The position numbers and the translations under genes were made by a program. Below are positions 20,541 through 20,652 of a stretch of 21,354 nucleotides of DNA, piece after piece. A model generated the notes under the pieces. The model ran no database searches. It had not been told where the DNA came from and saw only the letters and a program-made list of their open reading frames with translations. The stretch is from a virus: positions 1 through 21,354 of IMG/VR virus record IMGVR_UViG_3300013132_003789. One strand, written 5' to 3'. The first letter of the stretch is position 1. Each line of letters starts with the position of its first letter.

Positions 20541-20652
20541 AAGACACTCACAGCAACTCTACTTTTCACTTCGATGATAACGAAAAAGAGCGGTTCGACT
20601 CCGCAGTCCTTCGGGATTTAGTGTAACGGCAGCATAAGAAAAAAAGTGTCTT
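20541..20652 (+). ncRNA. Array unit 4 with circularly permuted tRNA-like domain
   Basis: Closing stem AAGACACT (20541-20548) with AGTGTCTT (20645-20652), 8 bp; ACAGCAA at 20550-20556. A long inner arm CTCT-AC-TTTTC/GAAAAAGAG spans 20557-20590. Next comes GCGG-TTCGACT-CCGC (20590-20604), an exact T-arm-type loop. Then AGTCC-TTCG-GGATT (20605-20618) forms a stem capped by a UUCG tetraloop in the acceptor position. Then TA (like U8-A9) and the D-arm GTGT-AACGGCA-GCAT (20621-20635) follow, with the GG pair that would dock into the T-loop. The order T-arm, acceptor-like stem, D-arm is a circular permutation of tRNA with the anticodon arm replaced by the Y-type stem. Known bacterial Y RNAs carry tRNA-like modules, which this matches. 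Confidence 0.8.

Follow-up and report, generated by a model that had tools for sequence, protein, structure and literature searches.

The bacterial Y RNA YrlA is already presented in the literature as a circularly permuted tRNA (PMC11472068), and a permuted tRNA mimic as such is therefore not new. According to the accessible part of PMC8394870, DusA and TruB act on YrlA, with pseudouridine in the T-loop and dihydrouridine in the D-loop, and a complex of Rsr, YrlA and PNPase has been published. Y RNAs of mycobacteriophages were reported by Chen et al. 2014, as cited in PMC12282133. Upstream of the Ro-like gene of the Listeria phage CKA15, within 2 kb, non-coding DNA is highly transcribed in three regions, and Y RNAs were suggested by the authors, as far as the available text goes (PMC12282133). 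A literature search, with Chen 2014, Wang 2018 and Sim 2020 outside its reach, found no paper on phage Y RNAs of permuted form. Chen et al. 2014 may already describe part of the DUF2828 family treated here.

The window analyzed, i.e. the whole stretch of DNA, is a virus record of 21,354 bases with a gene content that includes replication and nucleotide genes. A single open reading frame at 8432-12412 combines a uracil-DNA-glycosylase-type domain (residues 60-203) with DNA polymerase III alpha (PHP, NTPase and finger), and the same phage carries a family A DNA polymerase at 14485-16671. A strong and stable RNA fold, with a z of -4.1 and no equally good one in 200 shuffles, was observed at 18661-18759, between an upstream gene and the gene for a DnaB-type helicase; among the loci compared, only L002, a contig from another metagenome, has a match to it. 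Positions 20255-20705 hold five Y-type units in a row, all on the plus strand (Table 1); this number is a correction to the first-pass annotation. Every unit has a stem of 6-8 bp, with the motif ACAGCAA one or two bases 3' of the first stem strand. From the end of the array to the start codon of a DUF2828 gene on the same strand there are 24 nt. L002 shares both the array and the start of the neighbouring gene with the window, with 3 differences in 1107 aligned bases.

Table 1. Features of the Y-type array and the adjoining gene (window coordinates).
Feature	Position	Strand	Details
Y-type unit 1	20255-20312	+	Stem AAGGCAC/GTGCCTT; ACAGCAA at 20264-20270; G 3' of stem
Y-type unit 2	20343-20437	+	Stem GAGATGCA/TGCATCTC; motif at 20352-20358
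Y-type unit 3	20451-20525	+	Stem AGACGCA/TGCGTCT; motif at 20459-20465; A instead of G 3' of stem
Y-type unit 4 (tRNA-mimic unit)	20541-20652	+	Stem 20541-20548/20645-20652
ACAGCAA of unit 4	20550-20556	+	Conserved motif, above the stem on the 5' side
Anticodon-like arm, unit 4	20570-20584	+	TTCG-ATGATAA-CGAA; U33 present
T-arm, unit 4	20590-20604	+	GCGG-TTCGACT-CCGC
Closed hairpin at acceptor position, unit 4	20605-20618	+	AGTCC-UUCG-GGATT
UA linker, unit 4	20619-20620	+	Equals tRNA positions 8 and 9
D-arm, unit 4	20621-20635	+	GTGT-AACGGCA-GCAT; loop with GG
Y-type unit 5	20663-20705	+	Stem AGACTC/GAGTCT; motif at 20671-20677
DUF2828 gene (Ro60-like)	20730-21354	+	Cut off by the end of the window; full-length version (505 aa) is L002:3001-4515

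Unit 2 folds with a z of -3.2, and its insert bears no likeness to tRNA. The core of this insert, GTGTTGGCTTTCACTCGATAAAGCTCGTAG, is near-identical in L004 2571-2667 and represents a conserved arm of a kind that is not tRNA-like.

For unit 4 the first-pass annotation had described a T-arm, a hairpin closed by UUCG, the dinucleotide TA and a D-arm with GG in its loop, and all of them were found in place (20590-20635). The T-arm has 4 bp, with A.A where a fifth pair would stand; the hairpin at the acceptor position has 5 bp including one G.U, and two of the pairs in the D-arm are G.U. Free folding of unit 4 (bounds 20541-20652 or 20541-20656) gave exactly the Y-stem, the anticodon-like arm, the T-arm, the hairpin and the D-arm as the minimum free energy structure. 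The folding energy was ordinary (z -0.27 for 112 nt) and the D-arm was the weakest part, with a pair probability of only about 0.45; energy alone is therefore insufficient, and it is the pattern of sequence and structure that makes the case. An inner stem of unit 4, TTTTC/GAAAA, was dropped at a pair probability of about 0.05. A strict descriptor of the module matched unit 4 and units in other contigs; Markov-1 shuffles of the loci, 3.1 Mb in all, gave no match. A covariance model, R1, was built from 19 modules of other contigs only, this phage being left out. Its single match in the window was 20590-20635 (27.9 bits, E 3.7e-6), where E-values of R1 are rough and tandem-tRNA junctions elsewhere also match it. 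The annotated circularly permuted tRNA-like module within a Y-RNA-like unit is borne out by this match and by the predicted fold. No tRNA was found in the window by ARAGORN or Rfam, and the window holds no native-order cloverleaf with an open acceptor (tRNA, RF00005).

Permuted units numbered 21 among 399 distinct units from all loci, L013 5088 being a doubtful row. A3 leaves out L013 5088 and the window's own L002 row; its rows were picked by script with pairing demanded, so its 97% pairing and its covariation are partly built in, and the argument therefore rests on the shuffles, the R1 match and the counts of stem partners. Unit 4 is very likely a DUF2828-linked Y RNA bearing a tRNA-like arm. 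Aminoacylation of unit 4 seems unlikely, because its acceptor has only 5 bp and a UUCG cap. Recognition of its elbow by TruB, Dus enzymes or RNase P is a prediction of the first-pass annotation.

The ends of the RNA had been placed at the position of the anticodon arm, as a replacement of that arm. The permutation was upheld, but the arm is still there: a 4-bp hairpin with a 7-nt loop containing U33 (20570-20584), overlooked at first, is located just 5' of the T-arm in the anticodon-arm place of a permuted tRNA. Since this hairpin is retained, the RNA ends sit between the D-arm and the anticodon arm. An anticodon-like hairpin of at least 4 bp and with the right spacing was found in 8 of the 21 permuted units, compared to 1.2 expected from shuffles, and U33 was present in all 8 listed arms. 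A clear anticodon hairpin was absent in 13 of the 21, and in other permuted units, e.g. L134 4129-4256, the anticodon stem is opened in a YrlA-like manner. The first-pass annotation had also tied its reading to conservation among homologues. The outcome was mixed: among the five nearest contigs examined, a T-arm was found in L002 and L004 but not in L003, L005 and L007. L004 retains the anticodon-like arm and the T-arm, whose pairs differ from those of unit 4, as well as a hairpin with GG, and the acceptor hairpin is absent.

Y-units were studied further in the best 80 of 233 viral relatives, in the best 80 of 116 bacterial loci and in named phages. The 7-mer at -9 to -3 of ACAGCAA was taken, and its exact reverse complement was searched for within 230 bases downstream; 13 control 7-mers served as controls. 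An exact 7-bp partner was present for 90 of 180 ACAGCAA sites in the sampled viral loci (23/442 for controls), for 21 of 37 in the named phages (4/110) and for 102 of 229 in the sampled bacterial loci (17/577). For minus-strand sites the corresponding counts were 0/29, 0/3 and 3/52. The stems comprised 54 different sequences in the viral loci, 10 in the named phages and 38 in the bacterial loci, and a G directly after the stem was observed in 84/90, 21/21 and 102/102 cases, respectively. At least one unit was present in 64 of the best 80 of 116 bacterial DUF2828 loci, mostly just upstream of the gene, and eight was the highest number in one bacterial locus (L140). A reverse search with the RNA pattern only gave 46 stretches, 30 of them with DUF2828 inside; on contigs not found via the protein, contig names being compared by eye, DUF2828 was present in 23 of 37.

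Units were found in the named phages Listeria P100 and cka17, Bacillus PJN02 and vB_BcoS-136, Mycobacterium LeBron and Escherichia bumzen, the last of which has the permuted module at L131 2591-2715. Vibrio KVP40 has a single weak candidate of 6 bp, and in Synechococcus B23 no ACAGCAA unit was found, motif variants being seen by eye. DUF2828 frequently adjoins phage tRNA clusters. The variant motifs TTCAGCAA or TTCAGCCA were observed in units at L040 4531-4575 and 5080-5130 and at L135 5725-5990. Because such variant units exist, the ACAGCAA-based counts are lower bounds. That the most transcribed region of CKA15 is the Y-unit array was considered and found unsupported: 26,236-26,727 are the only coordinates stated in the accessible part of the paper (PMC12282133), and the Y-units lie within 25,250-25,580. 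By coordinates, the counterpart of that region is L133 5483-5974, which is not a Y-unit.

The gene at 20730 matches Pfam DUF2828 (E 1.2e-12). A structure of the complete protein from L002 was predicted from 27 sequences with a pLDDT of 86 and a pTM of 0.85. In a Foldseek comparison of this model with the PDB, matches 1-6 were all Ro60/TROVE, including Ro60 of the Thermus phage phiLo, for whose entry 9l5y no paper was found in a literature search that did not include Wang 2018 and Sim 2020. VIA-align gave a Z of 21.3 to Ro60 2i91 over 413 residues at 4.0 A; the ten best rows were all Ro60/TROVE, and the next row had 10.4. As modelled, the Ro60 fold (ring and vWA) spans the full DUF2828 protein. 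By sequence, Pfam gave DUF2828 and DUF7788, and a Pfam search of the protein for TROVE gave no row at E up to 10. Sequence profiles against the PDB showed no DUF2828-Ro60 link, profile A2 reaching TROVE chains only at E 1.2; it is therefore from the fold alone that the relation to Ro60 is drawn. PHROGs annotates the protein as an RNA-binding protein. The DxSxS metal-site motif of the vWA domain reads DVSGSM and is invariant in the 27 aligned proteins (D295-M300 of L002); the copy in the window ends before it.

tRNA parts are not confined to unit 4. T-arms were found in 71 of 367 units overall, compared to about 3 expected; compared to dinucleotide shuffles, the numbers were 35/197 and 1.8 for viral units (window included), 6/24 and 0.2 for units of named phages, and 30/146 and 1.2 for bacterial units. 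The permuted order of unit 4 is common in phage units and was also found in two actinobacterial loci (L206 and L208). In many bacterial units, inspected by eye, the order is native (D, anticodon, T) and the acceptor end opens onto the Y-stem. Examples of native-order tRNA-like arms in bacterial Y-units are L140 2964-3072, L142 3727-3829 and L137 3867-3963. Two phage Y-units, L063 5754-5871 and L008 1152-1255, apparently enclose an entire tRNA. A match to permuted tmRNA (RF04321) was observed at L075 5618-5774, on a tRNA-rich contig with DUF2828, at 49.7 bits and a cut-off of 47.

The reverse arrangement, form B, was observed in L040 4578-4696, a 119-nt Rfam tRNA match with intact acceptor stem, D-arm and T-arm. 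From D-arm to T-arm it carries the hairpin TATCTA-GCAA-TAGATA followed by CGG-ACAGCAA, which is a capped Y-stem. When the 1,640 motif sites in all DUF2828 loci were scanned for an acceptor with at least 6 of 7 pairs, a D-arm, a capped hairpin, the motif and a T-arm, 44 candidates were obtained in 32 loci, two of them doubtful (L146 6144-6225 and L182 77-230); five control motif sets gave 2, 0, 0, 0 and 0 candidates (5,488 sites). L126 7768-7876 is another example of form B. An independent scan of viral contigs for a capped hairpin and ACAGCAA, with no tRNA required, gave 30 stretches with 25 distinct sites. DUF2828 was present in 20 of the 30 stretches. With one incomplete site set aside, the full tRNA context was found at 16 of 24 sites, three of which (L125, L239 and L259) are in duplicate contigs of the main locus set. 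The minimum free energy fold of L083 3002-3114 has acceptor, D, capped Y, anticodon and T arms, and ACCA follows two form B cases in L013. Anticodon hairpins were present in 5 form B cases compared to 2.3 expected, which is no excess over chance, and form B is therefore claimed only as acceptor, D-arm, Y hairpin and T-arm.

As far as checked, this reciprocal permutation near DUF2828, with an open acceptor and with a capped Y hairpin and motif at the anticodon end, is new. We somewhat favour the view that a single RNA with five arms (Y, anticodon, T, acceptor, D) serves the RNPs of DUF2828-type Ro60 and occurs in two circular permutations that are reciprocal to each other, form B being a tRNA-ended class of Y RNA. 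In form A, to which unit 4 would belong, the RNA would start and stop at the Y-stem and the acceptor would be capped; in form B the acceptor stem would provide tRNA-like ends, and the anticodon end would hold the Y-stem as an insert closed by a short loop. Read-across of a tandem pair of form B genes could have produced form A, and form B may possibly be processed, CCA-tailed or even charged. If true, form B is an undescribed class joining tRNA metabolism to Ro60. The reciprocal permutation offers a natural experiment for asking which ends are important in a tRNA-like Y RNA.

Unit 4 is probably a phage Y-type RNA in which the permuted tRNA-mimic arm tethers a Ro60-like ring to a tRNA-recognizing partner. 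That tethering is its main job is a more tentative proposal, to which we give slightly less than even odds. Once transcribed, as we infer it to be, unit 4 would most likely be bound by the neighbouring ring and vWA protein of the DUF2828 family at its Y-stem and ACAGCAA. The arm with the D-loop/T-loop elbow and the capped acceptor would most likely recruit a cellular partner that recognizes tRNA or structured RNA, possibly an enzyme of tRNA modification or, like the PNPase reported to work with Rsr, an exoribonuclease. The capped acceptor would keep the RNA out of translation. Such recruitment could let the phage influence how RNA is turned over or how tRNA is handled. The four remaining units would be Y RNAs as well, their arms differing so as to serve other partners or to gate the ring. 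Against this explanation stand the absence of the T-arm in the nearest relatives, L003 and L005, the ordinary folding energy, the location of the stated CKA15 region away from the Y-units and the lack of a TROVE match by Pfam.

The main rival is a decoy, in which the arm mimics tRNA including the anticodon loop and diverts host anticodon nucleases or other tRNA-cutting defences. The excess of anticodon-like arms among permuted units, with U33 in each, and the frequent proximity of DUF2828 to phage tRNA clusters are in line with a decoy, which would also account for the retained anticodon-like loop. Phages are described as escaping tRNA-cutting defences by means of tRNAs (PMC10264068, PMC11555353), and a role as competitive inhibitor has been proposed for YrlA (PMC7790460). 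However, most permuted units have no clear anticodon hairpin, units of the same kind are found on bacterial chromosomes, and YrlA is reportedly not cut by the Salmonella nuclease (PMC7790460, as far as its available text goes). We regard the decoy as unlikely, though worth keeping in mind.

Less probable still is that the array acts in cis, as a 5' leader to which the DUF2828 protein binds to regulate its own gene. The short same-strand gap of 24 nt to the start codon fits such a leader, as do the upstream units in most bacterial loci, but some units are located downstream of the gene (L130 5452-5699, L206 and L208) or among tRNA genes (L063 and L134), and the units bear elaborate inserts. Algae and archaea have circularly permuted tRNA genes in which the 3' half precedes the 5' half and from which real tRNAs are produced. 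Unit 4 shares this order of the halves and has all four arms and a U33 loop, and some relatives have 7-bp acceptors and longer loops, one of which reads GCCA (L023 2855-2913). A precursor processed to a working tRNA is nevertheless very improbable, as the UUCG-closed 5-bp acceptor of unit 4 has no space for a discriminator and CCA, and other permuted units are capped by GAAA, GGAA or UUCG. A degenerate tRNA remnant or a chance resemblance of stems, to which the ordinary folding energy and the lack of conservation in L003 and L005 might point, was already disfavoured and is equally improbable given the R1 match, the absence of descriptor matches in shuffles and the recurrence of the module in unrelated phages and in YrlA.

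With the tethering Y RNA as the preferred reading, the closest known system is YrlA (RF02553; PDB 6CU1). As in unit 4, a T-arm, a closed acceptor hairpin, UA and a D-arm with GG follow each other in the same order, and the module is placed atop a Y-stem and encoded beside a protein of Ro60 fold. The first-pass annotation had proposed a comparison with YrlA, and R1 matched in 7 of 7 YrlA loci (L224-L230), the best match per locus having 52.5 to 56.7 bits. Weak whole-genome matches to YrlA were set aside because tandem tRNAs can mimic the module. The Rfam YrlA model (gathering 69 bits) had no match in the window and none at E 10 in 20100-20760; with the gathering threshold or E 10 as cut-off, Rfam as a whole gave only chance matches. 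The YrlA stem pattern CGAAUGC/ACUUG was found 0 times in the window array and in L002-L135, with two chance-like matches in bacterial loci; conversely, 0 of 7 ACAGCAA sites in the YrlA loci had a partner stem. The Y-stem of unit 4 is instead marked by ACAGCAA and a G after the stem, and because of this difference unit 4 was not filed as a member of Rfam YrlA. The anticodon stem, opened into the Y-stem in YrlA, is a separate hairpin in unit 4, and the partner is a TROVE protein for YrlA and DUF2828 for unit 4. Unit 4 may nonetheless function like YrlA.

A 7-bp stem, two bases, ACAGCAA and a G after the stem provide a sequence rule by which candidate Y RNAs can be picked out next to the DUF2828 genes of phages and bacteria, and this rule works where the Rfam YrlA model gave none among the loci scanned. 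What the tRNA-like arm does thereby becomes testable in easy systems, e.g. E. coli K-12 with a Felixounavirus. A capped acceptor and the lack of CCA set unit 4 apart from the permuted tRNA genes known in algae and archaea. The ring and vWA fold of Ro60/Rsr with its Y RNA (RYPER: Rsr, Y RNA and PNPase) is common to the DUF2828 protein, which differs in being phage-encoded and in having no TROVE sequence match. The same permuted module is present in the mycobacteriophage LeBron (L130 5519-5642), where a GCAGCAA unit adjoins a Ro-like gene.
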